From positions 1 to 9,904 of the forward strand of contig SLMR01000364.1 of the NCBI GenBank assembly GCA_007133445.1: a DNA stretch of 9,904 bases. The letters run 5' to 3'. The position numbers and the translations under genes were made by a program. Shown here piece by piece: positions 1,015 through 6,863 of the stretch (its first letter is position 1; every line of letters begins with the position of its first letter). Origin of the DNA: Aquisalimonas sp. GTDB lineage: Bacteria; Pseudomonadota; Gammaproteobacteria; Nitrococcales; Aquisalimonadaceae. The notes under the pieces are model-generated. The model saw nothing but the letters and a program-made list of their open reading frames with translations. It ran no database searches and was not told the DNA's origin.

Positions 1015-2073
1015 TCACGTTCTTGCGTTCGGCCTGCAATCAAGCACGTGATCCAGCGCGTAGCGACGCAGCATGGGTGCGTCCACGTCGACGGTGAGGT
1101 CCATGTAGGCCATTGGGTAGGGATCGGCCGTGATGGTGTTGTCGATGGCGGGGTAATCACCCACACGGGTGTGCCCGGTGATCACCCCGCGAAAGGCGTT
1201 CCCCCACGGGGAGACCGTCTCGAACACGGTGCCCGGGCTCAGCGTACCCGCCCGCGCCATGCGCGCCATGCGCGCCGACGTGCCGGTACCGGTCGGGCAG
1301 TGCCAGATGACGCCGGGGTGGCCGTAGGTCGCCGACGGGGACCGAATGGAGCCATCGGACTGCTGTTCCAGCGGCCCCATGAAATGCAGAAACCGTGGCA
1401 GGCCCACGTCCCCGAGCTCCGGATGACGGTGTGCGAATCCCTGTTGCACCGCGCGCACGACCCGGTCCGCGGCATCGATCATGCCGTCGATGCTGGATTC
1501 GTTGATCTCGAAGCCAAGGGCCGCCGCTTCCACCAGCAGGTAGTAGCCGCCACTCCAGGCGAGATCATAGGTCACCGGGCCAAGGCCGGGGACGTCCACG
1601 GTCTGCTCCGCGGCCTGGATGAAGGCGGCACCACCCTGCGTGGTGACCGAGCGCACGCACCCGCCCTCGTTGTGGGCGACAATGGTGTTCACGCCGGCGG
1701 GGGATTCCAGGCGTACGGTCTGGCTGCCCTCCTCCATGGGGATCAGCCCTGCCTCCAGCACCGCCGCCGTGGTGGCGATGGTGTTGGAGCCGGAGTAATA
1801 GGGATACCCCATCACCTCCATGATCACGAACCCGAGCTGTGCCTCCGGCATGGATGCCGGCATGACCAGATCCACGCACATGCTCTCGTAACCAAAGGGC
1901 TCAGTGATCAGAAGCCGGCGCAATCCGTCGGCCCTGGCTTCCATGTAGTCCATGCTCTCACGCACGGATTGCCCGGGCGCCGGCGCCACACCGTCGAGGA
2001 CGATACGGTGCAGGTCACCACCGACATCCACGTCCACGAGACGTAGACGGCGCAGGTTGTCATGGGCTCGCAT
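1015..2073 (-). CDS. Proline racemase superfamily enzyme, possibly trans-3-hydroxy-L-proline dehydratase-like
   Basis: This 352-residue protein has the proline racemase fold length and signature blocks: GYPYYSGSNTIA (89-100) aligns with the first catalytic block of proline racemase (GY..MCGHNSIA) and PTGTGTSARMA (260-270) with the second (PCGTGTSA). Classical racemases and 4-hydroxyproline epimerases use a Cys at both sites. Here they are Ser94 and Thr261, and the His of CGH is Ser96. In the human trans-3-hydroxy-L-proline dehydratase the second site is also Thr, so dehydration of 3-hydroxyproline (giving pyrroline-2-carboxylate) is a reasonable guess; racemisation by the two-thiol mechanism is not expected. 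ATG 2073 is chosen because a perfect AGGAGG sits 5 bases upstream; the frame stays open to 2124. The protein has no signal peptide, so it is cytoplasmic. The SDR gene follows on the same strand. No other hydroxyproline pathway gene is in the window, so the substrate is uncertain. Confidence 0.85.
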   Translation of the reverse strand: MRAHDNLRRLRLVDVDVGGDLHRIVLDGVAPAPGQSVRESMDYMEARADGLRRLLITEPFGYESMCVDLVMPASMPEAQLGFVIMEVMGYPYYSGSNTIATTAAVLEAGLIPMEEGSQTVRLESPAGVNTIVAHNEGGCVRSVTTQGGAAFIQAAEQTVDVPGLGPVTYDLAWSGGYYLLVEAAALGFEINESSIDGMIDAADRVVRAVQQGFAHRHPELGDVGLPRFLHFMGPLEQQSDGSIRSPSATYGHPGVIWHCPTGTGTSARMARMARAGTLSPGTVFETVSPWGNAFRGVITGHTRVGDYPAIDNTITADPYPMAYMDLTVDVDAPMLRRYALDHVLDCRPNART

Positions 2074-2323
2074 CGGGGCCTCCTGATGGCATCCTGGCAA
2101 TCGACCCGAGTCTATCAGGCGCAAGGCGCCGTCGAGTCAGGGACGCGCCACCAGACGACCAACCCGTCGTCGCCCCATCGGGGACCGTCTACCTGGAACT
2201 CCCGGGCCACGGCCACAGGTTCATGGTCGAACCCGGCCGCCAAGACCGCGCACGGCAACTCCGGCGAGTGGCTGCGCGATCCTGGCCGAGGCGGCCTGAA
2301 GGCCCAGGCTGTCGCGGCGCCAT
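2074..2323. other. 250-bp gap between lipoprotein and racemase-family genes
   Basis: No recognisable gene, terminator or promoter is seen here apart from the ribosome site of the racemase-family gene. The region stays G+C rich. A minus-strand frame ending at TGA 2117-2115 is open back through 2338, has G/C-rich third positions, and ends in a plausible peptide (for example DDGLVVWWRVPD), but has no convincing start or ribosome site. It may be a decayed gene end or chance. Confidence 0.4.
2079..2084 (-). promoter_or_regulatory. Shine-Dalgarno site fixing the racemase-family start
   Basis: On the minus strand the sequence AGGAGG is followed by five bases (CCCCG) and the ATG at 2073. This strong site decides between that ATG and the start 17 codons upstream, which has no comparable site. 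Confidence 0.8.
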
Positions 2324-3430
2324 TCAGTTGAGCTCGTCGAGGAGCGTCTTCAGAAGCTCAAACTCCTGCTGGTACCCCATCTTGTCATCGAGTTGGTAGT
2401 CCGAACACGTACCGGGAGCTGTATTGTCGAGCCAGAGGGTCTCACCAGTTCCGTCAGGATTTGACTCAGCCTCGATTTCCACAAAGCCCCGATCCCCGGC
2501 TTCCTTGTAATCATCCACTCCCTCATTTTCTCCACCGCAATGGTCATCGAAGAAGCTGTCGATGCCCTTCTTCTCGGCGGTGAACGAACCCTCGATCAGC
2601 GTTGAGGCGATGGTCATCGTGTAGTACGCATTGGCGTCATCCGTCTCGCCCCCGACTTCGCCTTCGCGCATGATCATGTGCTCTTCGCCGCCGACCTCCA
2701 GCACCATGGAGGTGGCCTCGTAGCCATCGACATCCGGACCGCCATCGCCTGGGCCACCCGAATGAACGGTGCCACTCGCATTCTTGCCGGTGAGCTCGAA
2801 AACCTCACCGCGGCTGTCACTCATGTCGAAGGTCAGGCCATTGTCCGTGAAATCTATGGTGGACTCCGCGACCATCCCCCCGTCCATCTGCGTGAATTCC
2901 GTTTCTCCTTCAAGGCTGCCGTCGATGACGACGTGGCGACCGTCACCGGAGTCGGTCGCTGTCAGCGGTTTGTGGATGCAGTACTCATCAAAAACGTACT
3001 CAAAGGTGCCGCTGCCGCTGACCTCCTCCGGCGATTGCTCATCGAAATCGTACTCATGGGTGACCGTGACCGTGTTGGTACCAGGGGTAGACGTACAGGT
3101 TCCGTCAACCTCCTCGATCTCCTCGTTTTCGGGGAGATCGTCGAGTCCCTGTTCCACTTCGTGGGTCATGCGGGTGATTACTGTGTCAAGGCGTGAGGCG
3201 AGGTAGGTGAGATCGCCGGCCAGTGCGGCGTCCGTGTCAGAGTCAAGATCTGCCTTTCCCTCGTCATCGTAATCGGGCTCGTGCAGCTCCATGGCAGTCA
3301 CTGGGTCGAGATTGTCCGCCAGGTTGACGGCGTCGTCGCTGCTGTCGCTGCTGTCGCTGCTGCTCAAACAGCCCGAGAGGGCAAGAGCGCTTGCGGTCAG
3401 GGCGCAAGTGGCAAAATGCTGGGTCTTCAT
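2324..3430 (-). CDS. Acidic outer-membrane-type lipoprotein, unknown function
   Basis: A 368-residue protein that begins with a type II signal peptide: charged start MKTQH, hydrophobic stretch, and lipobox LSGC with Cys21 as the lipidated residue. Residue +2 is Leu, not Asp, so sorting to the outer membrane is expected. A Ser/Asp-rich linker (23-33) follows. The mature part is crowded with Asp and Glu and looks beta-rich, with alternating strands such as TNTVTVTHEYDF and a TIDFTDNGLTFDM segment. Four further cysteines (112, 151, 298, 342) could form two disulfides in the periplasm. I do not recognise a family. ATG 3430 is chosen because the signal peptide starts there and GAGGT lies just upstream; the 20 codons before it are not protein-like. 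G+C is lower than in its neighbours (32 of 60 bases in 2461-2520), suggesting transfer or different selection. It has no close operon partner. Confidence 0.8.
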   Translation of the reverse strand: MKTQHFATCALTASALALSGCLSSSDSSDSSDDAVNLADNLDPVTAMELHEPDYDDEGKADLDSDTDAALAGDLTYLASRLDTVITRMTHEVEQGLDDLPENEEIEEVDGTCTSTPGTNTVTVTHEYDFDEQSPEEVSGSGTFEYVFDEYCIHKPLTATDSGDGRHVVIDGSLEGETEFTQMDGGMVAESTIDFTDNGLTFDMSDSRGEVFELTGKNASGTVHSGGPGDGGPDVDGYEATSMVLEVGGEEHMIMREGEVGGETDDANAYYTMTIASTLIEGSFTAEKKGIDSFFDDHCGGENEGVDDYKEAGDRGFVEIEAESNPDGTGETLWLDNTAPGTCSDYQLDDKMGYQQEFELLKTLLDELN

Positions 3431-3489: not shown

Positions 3490-3507
3490 CCTTACAAACG
3501 CCTTACA
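3490..3507. promoter_or_regulatory. Candidate 11-bp direct-repeat regulator site
   Basis: CCTTACA occurs at 3490-3496 and again at 3501-3507, an exact 11-bp step; on the minus strand it reads TGTAAGG twice. It lies 60-77 bases upstream of the lipoprotein start, a normal place for an activator site. PhoB/OmpR-type response regulators bind repeats with one-turn spacing, but this sequence matches no consensus I know. No terminator or gene was recognised in the rest of the 3431-3679 gap. Confidence 0.3.
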
Positions 3508-3679: not shown

Positions 3680-4375
3680 CTAGCGCGTTGCTCCCTGGAA
3701 GAGCCGGACCCGCCGGTACTTGAACAGCGGGATCAGCAGGAGGCCCGCAACGAAACCGCCGATGTGCGCGAGGAACGCCACGCCGGGCTCGTCCGGGGCC
3801 ACCCCGGCGCTGCTGACGAGCTGGAATCCGAACCAGAGCAGCAACACCAGCCCGGCCGGCAAGCGCAGCAGGTAAGGGATGATAATGAGTGGAATCACCA
3901 CCGTGATGCGCGAGAAGGGGTGCAGCACCAGGTAGGCGCCGAGCACACCCGAGATGGCGCCACTGGCACCGATCATGGGGATCTCGGAGCCCGGCGCCGC
4001 GGCTCCGTGGACGAGCGCGGCGACCACCCCGCAGAGCAGATAGAACACGATGAAACGAAAGTGCCCCATGGCGTCTTCGACGTTATTGGCGAATACCCAC
4101 AGGTAGAGCATGTTGCTGATGAGGTGCATCCAGCCGCCATGCAGGAACATGGACGTGAACAGGGTGGCCCAGGCGGGGGCCAGCACCATGTCGGGATGCA
4201 GCCGGGCCTCGCCGAAGAACACGGCGGGGATGAAGCCGAGGCCGTGGATCACGGCAACGTGAGCACGTTGATCCAGGCCCACCTGCCAGACGAAGACACC
4301 GATGCTGGCCGCGAGCAGCCCCCATGTCACGATGGGCAGGATGCGCGTCGGATTCTCGTCGGCAACCGGGATCAT
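3680..4375 (-). CDS. Rhomboid family intramembrane serine protease
   Basis: A 231-residue polytopic inner-membrane protein of the short six-helix bacterial rhomboid type. Rhomboids cut transmembrane segments of other proteins within the membrane with a Ser-His dyad. Visible: N-terminal [11 protein letters not shown], typical of this subgroup; a helix at about 13-33; the oxyanion/loop block [17 protein letters not shown] (78-94) with His79, His84 and Asn88; the catalytic GASG with Ser138; and AHIGGFVAG (203-211) with catalytic His204. All key residues are present. No extra domain is seen, and the C-terminus is a short basic tail (KYRRVR) expected in the cytoplasm. ATG 4375 is preferred on family similarity although no good ribosome site precedes it; a GTG at 4438 would add 21 residues with no family support. 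The natural substrate is not inferable. The DUF2256 gene is divergent, 64 bases away. Confidence 0.9.
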
Positions 4376-4427
4376 GGACTGGACAGGCTCGTTGCTGAGG
4401 GAGCCGGTCTCCTGCGCCGGCTTCGGG

Positions 4428-4433
4428 CATAAT
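4428..4433 (+). promoter_or_regulatory. Possible -10 element giving a leaderless DUF2256 transcript
   Basis: CATAAT is the only A+T-rich hexamer in a G+C-rich stretch and ends 6 bases before the DUF2256 ATG at 4440. A transcript started the usual distance downstream would begin at or next to the ATG. No Shine-Dalgarno sequence precedes that ATG, which fits leaderless translation. No clear -35 box is seen, so support is modest. Confidence 0.3.
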
Positions 4434-4439
4434 GCCACA

Positions 4440-4577
4440 ATGCCCCATACGAAACCGCCCCTGCCAGAGAAGACCTGCCCGGTCTGTCAGCGGCCGTTCC
4501 GCTGGCGCAAGAAATGGCGCAACAACTGGGATGCGGTGCGCTACTGCTCCGAGCGCTGCCGACGCCAGGGAATCTGA
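4440..4577 (+). CDS. DUF2256 small zinc-ribbon protein
   Basis: A 45-residue protein with the full DUF2256 signature: CPVC (Cys13, Cys16), then RPFRWRKKW (18-26), W30, and YCSERC (Cys36, Cys40). The CxxC...CxxxC arrangement should bind one zinc ion, and the very basic centre suggests nucleic-acid contact; both are inference, because the family has no established function. From memory of other genomes, DUF2256 genes often sit beside photolyase/cryptochrome genes of the iron-sulfur class, and that is the case here: the photolyase gene converges on it with 20 bases between stops. ATG 4440 is the start that gives family-like length. It has no visible ribosome site and may be translated from a leaderless mRNA. 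Upstream in-frame ATGs back to 4302 run antisense to the rhomboid gene and are unlikely. Confidence 0.85.
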
Positions 4578-4597: not shown

Positions 4598-6154
4598 CTA
4601 GGCCTGAACCTCCCGAGAACACTGCAGCACAGCGTGCCGGTGGCTCTCCGCGGTGGCCTGAATGGCGTCCCGGTCGGCACCACTCAGCCTCTTGAGGTTG
4701 CGGACCTGCAGCGCCGTGCGCGGATTGCGTCCCAGGCGCTGCTCATGGCGAATCAGGAAGTCCCAGTACAACACGGTGAACGGGCAGGCCGTCTCACCAC
4801 TGCGCTGCTCGGGCGAGAAGGCACAATGATCGCAGTAGTTGCTCATGCGCTGGACGTACTTGCCCGAGGCGCAGTAGGGCTTCGACGCCAGGACCCCATC
4901 ATCGGCAAACTGGGACATCCCCAGGGTGTTCGGGGCCTCCACCCATTCCACGGCATCCACGTAGACGGCCAGGTACCATTCATGCACCTGGCGCGGCTCG
5001 ACACCGAGCATCAGGGTGTACAGCCCGGTGATCATGAGGCGCTGAATGTGGTGCGCGTAACCGTAGTCCAGGGTCTGCCGGACGGCCTGCTGCAGGCAGA
5101 CCATGTCCGTGTCTCCGGTCCAGAAGAAATCCGGCAGTGGATGCCCGGCGTCCAGGGCATTCTTCCCCAGGTACTCCGGCATCTGCTGCCAGTAGATGCC
5201 GCGGACGAACTCCCTCCAGCCAAGCACCTGGCGAATGAATCCTTCAACGGATTGCAGTGGCGCCCGCCCCTCCCGATACGCGTGCTCGACGGCGGCCACC
5301 ACGACTCGCGGTGAGATCAGCTTCAGATTCAGCGCGGCCGAGAGCCGCGAGTGATAGAGCCATGGCTCATCCGTCCACAACGCATCCTGATACGGACCGA
5401 ACGCGGGCAGTCGGTGCTCGATGAAATCATCCAGCGCCTGCCATGCCTGCTCGGGGGTGACAGGCCAGTCGAAGTGGCTCAGTTCCCCCGGATGGTCTTC
5501 GAAACGCCTGGCGACCAGGTCCAGCACCCCGCGGGTGGTGGCGTCGTGGCTGAAGCCGCACGGACGCGGCAGCATGCCCGGCCCCTGGCGCCCGAATGCA
5601 TGGCGGTTCTCGCTATCCAGGTTCCAGGTCCCGCCCACGGGCTCATCACCGTCCATCAGCACATGGTGGTCGCGGCGCAATGCCCGATAGTAATCTTCCA
5701 GCCGTAACCGCTTGCGGTCCCGCGCCCACACCCGGAAGCGTTCCGGGGAATCGAAGAAATGCCGGTCGCGGACGATCACCAGCCGTTTGCCCGCCACCCG
5801 GACCGTGCGCCGGAGTTCCTGAAGAACGCGGTGGTCACCGGGCTGGGTCACCAGCACATGCTCCGGTTGCAGACGCTCGATGTCGGCGGACAGCGCCTCA
5901 CCCAGGGTTCTGCAGGCGTGCTGGTCCAGATACCGGTACTGCACGCTGACCCCGGAGCGCCGCAGTTCCTCGGCGAAATGCCGCATGGCTGCCAGGAACA
6001 GGGCGATTCGCGCCTTGTGTGACCACACATGGGTTGCTTCCTGCCCGACTTCGGCCATCCATACGGCATCCTTATCGCGGTCAAAGTTGTCGAAGACAGC
6101 GGCGTCAGAGTTAAGCTGATCACCGAGACAGATCACGAGTTGTCGCAGCCCCAC
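4598..6154 (-). CDS. Iron-sulfur bacterial photolyase/cryptochrome (PhrB/CryB class)
   Basis: A 518-residue flavoprotein of the FeS-BCP class (photolyase-related DPRP domain at the N-terminus, FAD-binding helical domain after about 200). Members such as Agrobacterium PhrB repair (6-4) photoproducts in UV-damaged DNA with blue light, using FAD, a ribityllumazine antenna and a [4Fe-4S] cluster. N-terminal LVICLGDQLN (6-15) is typical. Four cysteines (353, 441, 444, 457) have exactly the spacing of the PhrB cluster ligands 350, 438, 441, 454, and HHIQRLMITG (368-377) holds the His pair matching PhrB His365/His366, the latter needed for (6-4) repair. So an active (6-4) photolyase is likely, although some relatives (Rhodobacter CryB) also act as light sensors. 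Start GTG 6154 has GGAGG 9 bases upstream; an ATG at 6190 would give 530 residues. The frame beyond runs antisense to the exonuclease gene. Regulation: see the 11-bp repeats at 6208-6240. Confidence 0.93.
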   Translation of the reverse strand: MGLRQLVICLGDQLNSDAAVFDNFDRDKDAVWMAEVGQEATHVWSHKARIALFLAAMRHFAEELRRSGVSVQYRYLDQHACRTLGEALSADIERLQPEHVLVTQPGDHRVLQELRRTVRVAGKRLVIVRDRHFFDSPERFRVWARDRKRLRLEDYYRALRRDHHVLMDGDEPVGGTWNLDSENRHAFGRQGPGMLPRPCGFSHDATTRGVLDLVARRFEDHPGELSHFDWPVTPEQAWQALDDFIEHRLPAFGPYQDALWTDEPWLYHSRLSAALNLKLISPRVVVAAVEHAYREGRAPLQSVEGFIRQVLGWREFVRGIYWQQMPEYLGKNALDAGHPLPDFFWTGDTDMVCLQQAVRQTLDYGYAHHIQRLMITGLYTLMLGVEPRQVHEWYLAVYVDAVEWVEAPNTLGMSQFADDGVLASKPYCASGKYVQRMSNYCDHCAFSPEQRSGETACPFTVLYWDFLIRHEQRLGRNPRTALQVRNLKRLSGADRDAIQATAESHRHAVLQCSREVQA

Positions 6155-6205
6155 GGGCAGGTACCTCCGGTTGCGGGCACGGCACGGCATTGGTTGCCGA
6201 CATCC

Positions 6206-6211
6206 TTTATA
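6206..6211 (-). promoter_or_regulatory. Predicted -10 box of the photolyase gene
   Basis: TATAAA on the minus strand, in otherwise G+C-rich DNA, would place a transcript start near 6199 and give a leader of about 45 bases to the GTG start at 6154. That supports GTG 6154 over ATG 6190. No good -35 hexamer is visible at 16-18 bases, as is common for regulated promoters. The box overlaps the first of the 11-bp repeats. Confidence 0.4.
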
Positions 6212-6240
6212 CAGATAGTGTACAGGAGATGTACGAATGT
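6208..6240 (+). promoter_or_regulatory. Three 11-bp direct repeats, candidate CarH/LitR-type light operator
   Basis: Three consecutive 11-mers begin TATACA (6208), TGTACA (6219) and TGTACG (6230), followed by GATAG, GGAGA and AATGT. The common core is T-N-T-A-C-(A/G) at an exact 11-bp period; a weaker fourth match, CCGACA, lies one period upstream at 6197. Tandem 11-bp repeats with a TNTACA core are the described operators of CarH, a MerR-family repressor that uses adenosylcobalamin to sense light, and LitR is its close relative. The array covers the predicted photolyase -10 box. The exonuclease Shine-Dalgarno sequence lies across the second repeat unit, and the third lies between it and the ATG, so a bound dark-state repressor could block both divergent genes. 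No CarH/LitR gene is in the window. The repeats are seen; the regulator is inferred. Confidence 0.55.
6224..6229 (+). promoter_or_regulatory. Shine-Dalgarno site of the exonuclease, embedded in the repeats
   Basis: AGGAGA lies 7 bases before the ATG at 6237. It starts at the last base of the second TNTACA core and fills the spacer between repeats two and three, so operator and ribosome site share the same bases. Confidence 0.75.
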
Positions 6241-6863
6241 CACGATTCCGCAAACCGCCCCACGACGTGTTCGTGTCCACGGACATTGAGGCAGACGGGC
6301 CGGCCCCCGGCCTGAATTCCATGCTGTCACTGGGTTCGGCCGCGTACTCGGCGGAGGGGGATCTGCTGGATACGTTCAGCGTCAACCTGGAGACGCTACC
6401 GGAAGCCAGCGCGCACCCGAAGACGGTGGAGTGGTGGAAACAGTGGCCGGAGGCCTGGGAACTTGCGCGCCGGGACGCGCGCCCGCCGGAGGAAGCCATG
6501 CAGGCGTACCTGGACTGGCTCAAGGGGCTGGATGGGCGGCCCGTGTTCGTGGCCTGGCCCGTGGGGTTCGACTTTCCCTTCGTGAACTACTACCTTCTGC
6601 GCTTCACCGGCGAAGCGCCGTTCGGGTTCACCGCGCTGGACATCAAGACCTACGCTATGGCGCTGACATCCCGCAGCTCCTACCACCGCACCACCAAGGA
6701 CCGACTTCCCGATCGCTGGTTCGAGCCGGAACTCAAGCACAACCACGTGGCACTGGACGATGCCCTGGAGCAGGGTGCCCTGTTCATGGCCATGTTTCGT
6801 GAAGTCATGGCCGGTGGCGAGACGGCCATCAACCCGCAGGATTTCAGCGAGTATCCCGAATAG
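6237..6863 (+). CDS. DEDDh-type 3'-5' exonuclease domain protein
   Basis: A single-domain 208-residue protein of the DnaQ-like exonuclease superfamily, which removes nucleotides from 3' ends of DNA or RNA with two metal ions. The metal ligands can be read directly: Asp16 and Glu18 in STDIEADG (14-21), Asp112 in GFDFPF (110-115), and His170 with Asp175 in HVALDDA (170-176), the H-x4-D spacing of the DEDDh subgroup. So it should be active. It lacks any extra domain and is shorter than the polymerase III epsilon subunit; similarity to Rv2179c-like exoribonucleases is possible but I cannot settle DNA versus RNA. The start is ATG 6237 with AGGAGA 7 bases upstream. It is transcribed divergently from the photolyase gene across a shared 82-base region holding the 11-bp repeats, which suggests common control and perhaps a role in repair or recovery after light/UV damage. 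It converges on the META lipoprotein gene. Confidence 0.88.
   Translation: MSRFRKPPHDVFVSTDIEADGPAPGLNSMLSLGSAAYSAEGDLLDTFSVNLETLPEASAHPKTVEWWKQWPEAWELARRDARPPEEAMQAYLDWLKGLDGRPVFVAWPVGFDFPFVNYYLLRFTGEAPFGFTALDIKTYAMALTSRSSYHRTTKDRLPDRWFEPELKHNHVALDDALEQGALFMAMFREVMAGGETAINPQDFSEYPE

Follow-up and report, generated by a model that had tools for sequence, protein, structure and literature searches.

The stretch of Aquisalimonas DNA analysed here (9,904 nucleotides of contig SLMR01000364.1, hereafter the window) carries two genes that diverge from a common intergenic region: a photolyase gene on the minus strand (4598..6154) and a gene for a 3'-5' exonuclease on the plus strand (6237..6863). 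The photolyase, a predicted protein of 518 aa, matches the Pfam family DPRP (E 1.9e-69, the longer frame being tested) and aligns with the solved structures 5kcm and 4dja, which represent the (6-4) photolyase PhrB, at E about 1e-143 over residues 4-502 of 518; this full-length homology to solved members places the putative enzyme in the (6-4)/FeS-BCP (PhrB) type. Translation is more likely to start at the GTG at 6154 than at the ATG at 6190, which was set aside; a Shine-Dalgarno sequence for the GTG, GGAGG, is found at 6164..6168 on the minus strand (with a similar sequence in the alignment of relatives). The photolyase gene converges with a DUF2256 gene (4302-4577, plus strand), the two being arranged tail to tail; the DUF2256 match is limited to the C-terminal part of the frame, and the real gene is thus probably shorter. 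The exonuclease (208 aa) is recognized by its similarity to the solved structure 7t2s (E 8.2e-19), the Pfam family Rv2179c-like falling slightly below the cut-off, and the Shine-Dalgarno sequence that would serve its ATG at 6237 (AGGAG, 6224..6228, plus strand) is part of a repeat array.

This array abuts the exonuclease ATG, is separated from the photolyase GTG by 53 bp, and consists of three tandem 11-bp units (6208..6235, no strand assigned) with the plus-strand cores TATACA (repeat 1, 6208..6213), TGTACA (repeat 2, 6219..6224) and TGTACG (repeat 3, 6230..6235), the minus-strand reading being CGTACA, TGTACA and TGTATA. The three cores and their 11-bp period had been singled out in a reading made from the letters alone, together with the claim that they were unlikely to be fortuitous, and both points were borne out. 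A scan of the window for the pair TNTACA-N5-TNTACA, with up to two mismatches and on both strands, gave 6 matches (four from the array on its two strands, one from a pair at 6197, and one from an unrelated pair at 3491), the mean across 200 shuffles being 1.01, with 0/200 shuffles reaching 6. Three tandem units at up to one mismatch occur a single time in the window (6208, plus strand), where base composition leads to an expectation of 4e-5, and 60 first-order Markov sequences contained no triples, even at 2 mismatches.

The alignment of the window with four loci of relatives (L189-L192; 5 sequences) distinguishes the array from its surroundings. Invariant columns amount to 5/6, 6/6 and 4/6 in repeats 1, 2 and 3, 1/5 in the first spacer, 5/5 in the second, which holds the Shine-Dalgarno sequence of the exonuclease, and 7/42 in the remaining intergenic DNA at 6155-6196; the array is conserved amid diverged intergenic DNA and a variable first spacer. 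A fourth, partial repeat that the sequence-only reading had placed at 6197 (CCGACA) was dropped, since positions 6197-6202 are invariant in 0/6 columns of the same 5 sequences. The overlap with the exonuclease ribosome site that it had pointed out is real, being conserved in 5/5 aligned sequences, and is accounted for by the array being placed where the second of the two divergent genes begins. On the photolyase side, a possible -10 element, TATAAA (6206..6211, minus strand), overlaps repeat 1, a suggestion made by eye; no consensus sigma-70-type promoter at the locus passes a promoter scan, so that the geometry of any repression is a guess.

The distribution of the array was followed at photolyase loci from a contig scan and in 144 relatives of one Aquisalimonas MAG (the two Aquisalimonas MAGs being G001 and G002). 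At 67 photolyase loci taken from one contig scan, in which a pair with up to one mismatch was looked for between -300 and +60, the array was found at 2/67, both in the Aquisalimonas MAGs; one of the contigs (L049) begins inside the gene and carries no upstream DNA. The idea that photolyases of this kind generally have the array was consequently rejected, and the photolyase-linked array is specific to this lineage. The photolyase itself was found in 43/144 relatives (E <=1e-60), and the pair scan covered 30 photolyase loci of these 43 genomes, 27 of which entered an anchor-motif comparison (L215, L217 and L218 being without the anchor motif). Four of the 30, in G001, G002, G004 and G005, have the array ahead of the photolyase and against the exonuclease ATG; 24 have no pair anywhere; and two (L198, L199) have pairs that lie away from the photolyase start. 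Conservation ahead of orthologous photolyases, whose absence the earlier reading had named as a refutation, is found in those four relatives and at none of the other loci among the 30. The exonuclease adjoins the photolyase in the four array-bearing genomes and also in G007, which is without the array. G007 and G012 (L194, L196), neither of which has an array at the photolyase, have an upstream motif in common, GCAAAACCTTACAC, perhaps another stress-type promoter.

The same pair recurs elsewhere in the relatives' genomes. Counting strands apart, G001 has 5 perfect pairs against 1 for the reversed control, and G002 has 13 against 0. Pair neighbors supported by Pfam comprise, in G001, a chalcone isomerase-like protein and a methyltransferase, and, in G002, GTP cyclohydrolase I (FolE), CMAS, DUF1295, DCC1, an aromatic amino acid lyase and a PAS protein, the latter being a photoactive yellow protein (PYP) by sequence (1kou, E 2.7e-64); one of the G002 pairs has a SRAP gene at a distance of about 0.45 kb. 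Some of these sites, such as the one before the G001 methyltransferase, with its TCTACA core, may be chance matches. Pairs were counted in all 144 relatives, and the comparison with the presence of a LitR-type regulator used the first-listed 54 (G001-G054), omitting 90 relatives whose control counts were mostly higher. Among these 54, the 26 genomes with LitR hold 119 pairs (control 9) and the 28 without LitR hold 22 (control 14); in addition, 21/30 litR loci have pairs no more than 250 bp ahead of litR itself. The array is enriched in close relatives that carry a LitR/CarH-type MerR gene. As a rough background for the pyp promoters treated below, 22 loci with a LOV motif (66,528 bp) contained no pairs.

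LitR was found in 41/144 relatives (E <=1e-20), including all four that share the array, and G001 and G002 each encode one long LitR-type MerR protein beside a DNA photolyase gene (Pfam was run on the G001 copy). The best solved match of the lineage LitR is CarH, at E 2.4e-17. The array at 6208-6235 resembles a known type of site: CarH operators consist of three or four units of an 11-bp consensus, according to the available text of PMC8156234, and CarH of Thermus thermophilus, Bacillus megaterium and Myxococcus, which belongs to class I LitR, likewise acts at three tandem 11-bp direct repeats with a TnnACA core in that account. It is very likely that the array is an operator of the LitR/CarH family, and this part of the proposed light operator stands, with conservation, recurrence at light-damage genes and enrichment with LitR in its favor.

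The B12-dependent CarH photoreceptor that had been put forward as the sensor is not supported by the relatives. Columns of the B12 site (CarH W131, E141, H142 and H177) were read in one LitR per genome in the 41 genomes (G097 has a second copy), and the residues are intact in 11/41 (G062 having Ser for E175) and lost in 30/41. The LitR proteins of G001-G005, read as those of relatives of the window, have all lost them, so that the four array-sharing relatives lack the residues of the AdoB12 pocket. The PF02310 domain is below the cut-off for the G002 LitR and absent from the Pfam matches of the G001 LitR, and the LitR alignment is weak in the B12 region, where an ERH of the G002 protein aligns to the CarH His motif in phmmer. 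By loss of the B12 site these regulators are likely to be class II-like, an assignment for which PDB and Pfam matches give the family and not the class, the LitR tree having been built without Pseudomonas LitR.

Class II LitR proteins are also MerR/LitR regulators without a working B12 site, PmlR2 of P. mendocina, which is paired with PmSB-LOV, and PplR of P. putida being the examples described in the accessible part of PMC9758184. The relatives of the window share with these systems T(G/A)TACA cores, short LOV orthologs and a regulon with photolyase and folE-type genes. As reported there, blue-light-activated PmSB-LOV inhibits DNA binding by PmlR2, which provides a precedent for the mechanism considered below. 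In comparison with PmlR2/PmSB-LOV as covered in that text, there are extra targets here, namely PYP and the pair formed by the (6-4) photolyase and the exonuclease. The spacing differs, since the published Pseudomonas sites read T(G/A)TACA-N12-TGTA(C/T)A in the same portion of the source, while the array has N5 and an 11-bp period, a discrepancy that argues against the explanation preferred here.

Orthologs of the short LOV protein SB-LOV are present in 18/144 relatives (60-100% identity, E <=4.4e-28, the next match being at 6.1e-20), are 136-145 residues long in all 18 when counted from the match start, and find their best solved match in a group of Pseudomonas-type short LOV chains that includes 3sw1, which we take to be PpSB1-LOV. 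All 18 genomes, G001, G002, G004 and G005 among them, have a degenerate LitR, and SB-LOV co-occurs with LitR across the 144 relatives with a Fisher value of 5.5e-12 that is inflated by kinship. Two observations weigh against a LitR/SB-LOV switch: no arrays were found near SB-LOV genes in the relatives, and G003 has SB-LOV and LitR yet no match to this photolyase. litR and the SB-LOV gene are usually not adjacent; in G107 (L256) they lie close together, at about 1125-1340 (plus strand) and 1964-2446 (minus strand), an arrangement also seen for PmSB-LOV and PmlR2 of P. mendocina. An exact LOV codon pattern was discarded as a marker of the partner, being too coarse (most of its 22 matches are in long multi-domain frames) and missing SB-LOV, whose motif reads DCRFLQ. 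Another family of short LOV proteins (MTFVVEKDP...) was discounted as a LitR partner, since it is also present in 12 genomes without a LitR match (G019, G022, G025, G027, G029, G031, G033, G045, G047, G049, G051 and G052).

Taken with the window genome assumed to resemble its relatives, these data make it probable that the array is worked by a B12-independent LitR together with SB-LOV, and this reading is preferred to CarH proper because the four array-bearing relatives combine a degenerate LitR with SB-LOV. The array would serve as a single operator for two divergent genes, photolyase and exonuclease. In the dark, a class II-like, B12-independent MerR repressor of the LitR/CarH family would occupy the 11-bp units and block both genes; in blue light, LitR would be bound by an SB-LOV-type short LOV protein and taken off the DNA, and its release would induce both genes along with a wider regulon of responses to light damage. 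Within this scheme we infer DNA binding, dark repression, the likeness of the window genome to its relatives and, with PmlR2/PmSB-LOV as the model, the partnership with LOV.

A true class I CarH, in which an AdoB12 photoreceptor would stay bound to the 11-bp repeats until light made it come apart unaided, is unlikely to be the regulator. The spacing and core of the array do fit the 11-bp consensus nAnnTnnACAn given in the part of PMC8156234 available, and an intact B12-site LitR is found in the 11 of 41 LitR genomes mentioned above, some with arrays upstream of litR; the consensus A, however, is matched solely before repeat 3, and the array-sharing relatives have lost the B12-site residues and possess SB-LOV without exception. 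Known CarH targets are carotenoid genes, as far as the same text goes, and LitR operons with photolyase and RudS are described in the accessible portion of PMC11417400.

It is improbable, too, that at this locus LitR represses while the light signal comes from PYP, or from PYP and SB-LOV together. PYP is encoded in 12/144 relatives, all 12 with LitR (Fisher 7.6e-8, inflated by kinship), and the array precedes pyp in 9/12 of them; moreover, eight genomes with a degenerate LitR and no SB-LOV have PYP. However, co-occurrence does not amount to contact, and G001 and G005 have the array and SB-LOV with no PYP match, G002 and G004 carrying both proteins. A further explanation, that the block is kept only as translation signals of the exonuclease with TNTACA incidental, or that another TGTACA-binding protein uses it, can be given very little credence: the Shine-Dalgarno sequence and start codon do form part of the block and more distant photolyase loci are without an array, but the Shine-Dalgarno sequence is preceded by repeats 1 and 2, which are conserved with a variable spacer, and this pair is found again at unlinked genes and tracks the presence of LitR.

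Beyond the locus itself, the case of PYP merits separate treatment. SB-LOV or PYP is present in 26/30 genomes with a degenerate LitR and in 1/11 with an intact one (Fisher 8.7e-6), and among degenerate-LitR genomes PYP is found in 8/12 without SB-LOV and in 3/18 with it (Fisher 0.009), both values being inflated by kinship; neither protein accompanies the degenerate LitR of G023, G056, G095 and G127. Seven of the eight genomes with PYP only cluster in one group of the LitR tree and G035 stands apart, so that the number of events may be no more than two. In a class-wide sample, PYP occurs in 7/369 genomes and LitR in 61/369, LitR being present in 6/7 PYP genomes (p 1e-4, or 0.003 on five PYP genomes not seen before); in this sample G332 has no LitR match, G301 has only a weak LitR match that contains a stop, and in G199 and G301 PYP lies within a long frame.

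The promoters of pyp genes are where the array reappears. Eight of the nine arrays are perfect, with pairs on one or both strands 73-92 bp before the main pyp (L120, L122, L123, L124, L126, L127, L128 and L130), and that of G142 is seen at one mismatch; pyp of G004 has two-mismatch pairs only, and no pairs precede pyp in G032 and G042. Second pyp copies (L132-L136) have the array in 0/5 cases, and of the PYP loci beyond the close relatives (L219-L223) four are without a pair at up to one mismatch, L222 having one pair about 1.3 kb from the PYP match. In G020, G026, G034 and G036 the pair lies, by eye, between TTGTT(A/G) and TANGCT hexamers 17 bp apart. The PYP of G026 differs by one residue from the crystallized protein 1kou, and downstream of pyp in G020 come two large ORFs, putative pCL and TAL genes by their order, as in the pyp-pCL-TAL operon of Halorhodospira halophila in the part of PMC12826048 at hand; the array upstream of pyp is what distinguishes the relatives from the operons presented there. 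The Halorhodospira identity of these PYP genomes is one that we infer.

It is tentatively suggested by these patterns, at rather low odds, that a B12-blind LitR can take its light signal either from a short LOV protein or from PYP. In the seven Halorhodospira-like genomes and G035, which have a degenerate LitR and PYP without SB-LOV, PYP would then be the blue-light anti-repressor of LitR, and pyp itself would be under a LitR operator in most of them, closing a feedback loop. The signal chain of PYP is described as a knowledge gap in the text of PMC12826048 that could be accessed, and a word search of its main text, as available, returned no mention of MerR, LitR, CarH, promoter or photolyase. 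Literature on PYP with LitR, CarH or MerR, covered by title and the start of the abstract and with most subscription journals outside its scope, contained no PYP-LitR link.

In the preferred reading, that of a B12-independent LitR with SB-LOV, the operator brings an exonuclease and a photolyase of the (6-4) type into a LitR light regulon, one in which the 11-bp spacing is like that of CarH while the repressor seems to have lost B12. The same operator leads to the promoters of pyp genes, one of which encodes a protein nearly identical to 1kou, and a link made through promoters only would escape searches based on operons or fused domains. The association of LitR with PYP is the most valuable lead to come from this analysis, as it names a concrete candidate partner for PYP; if true, single-domain PYP would act on gene regulation, with DNA repair among its outputs.
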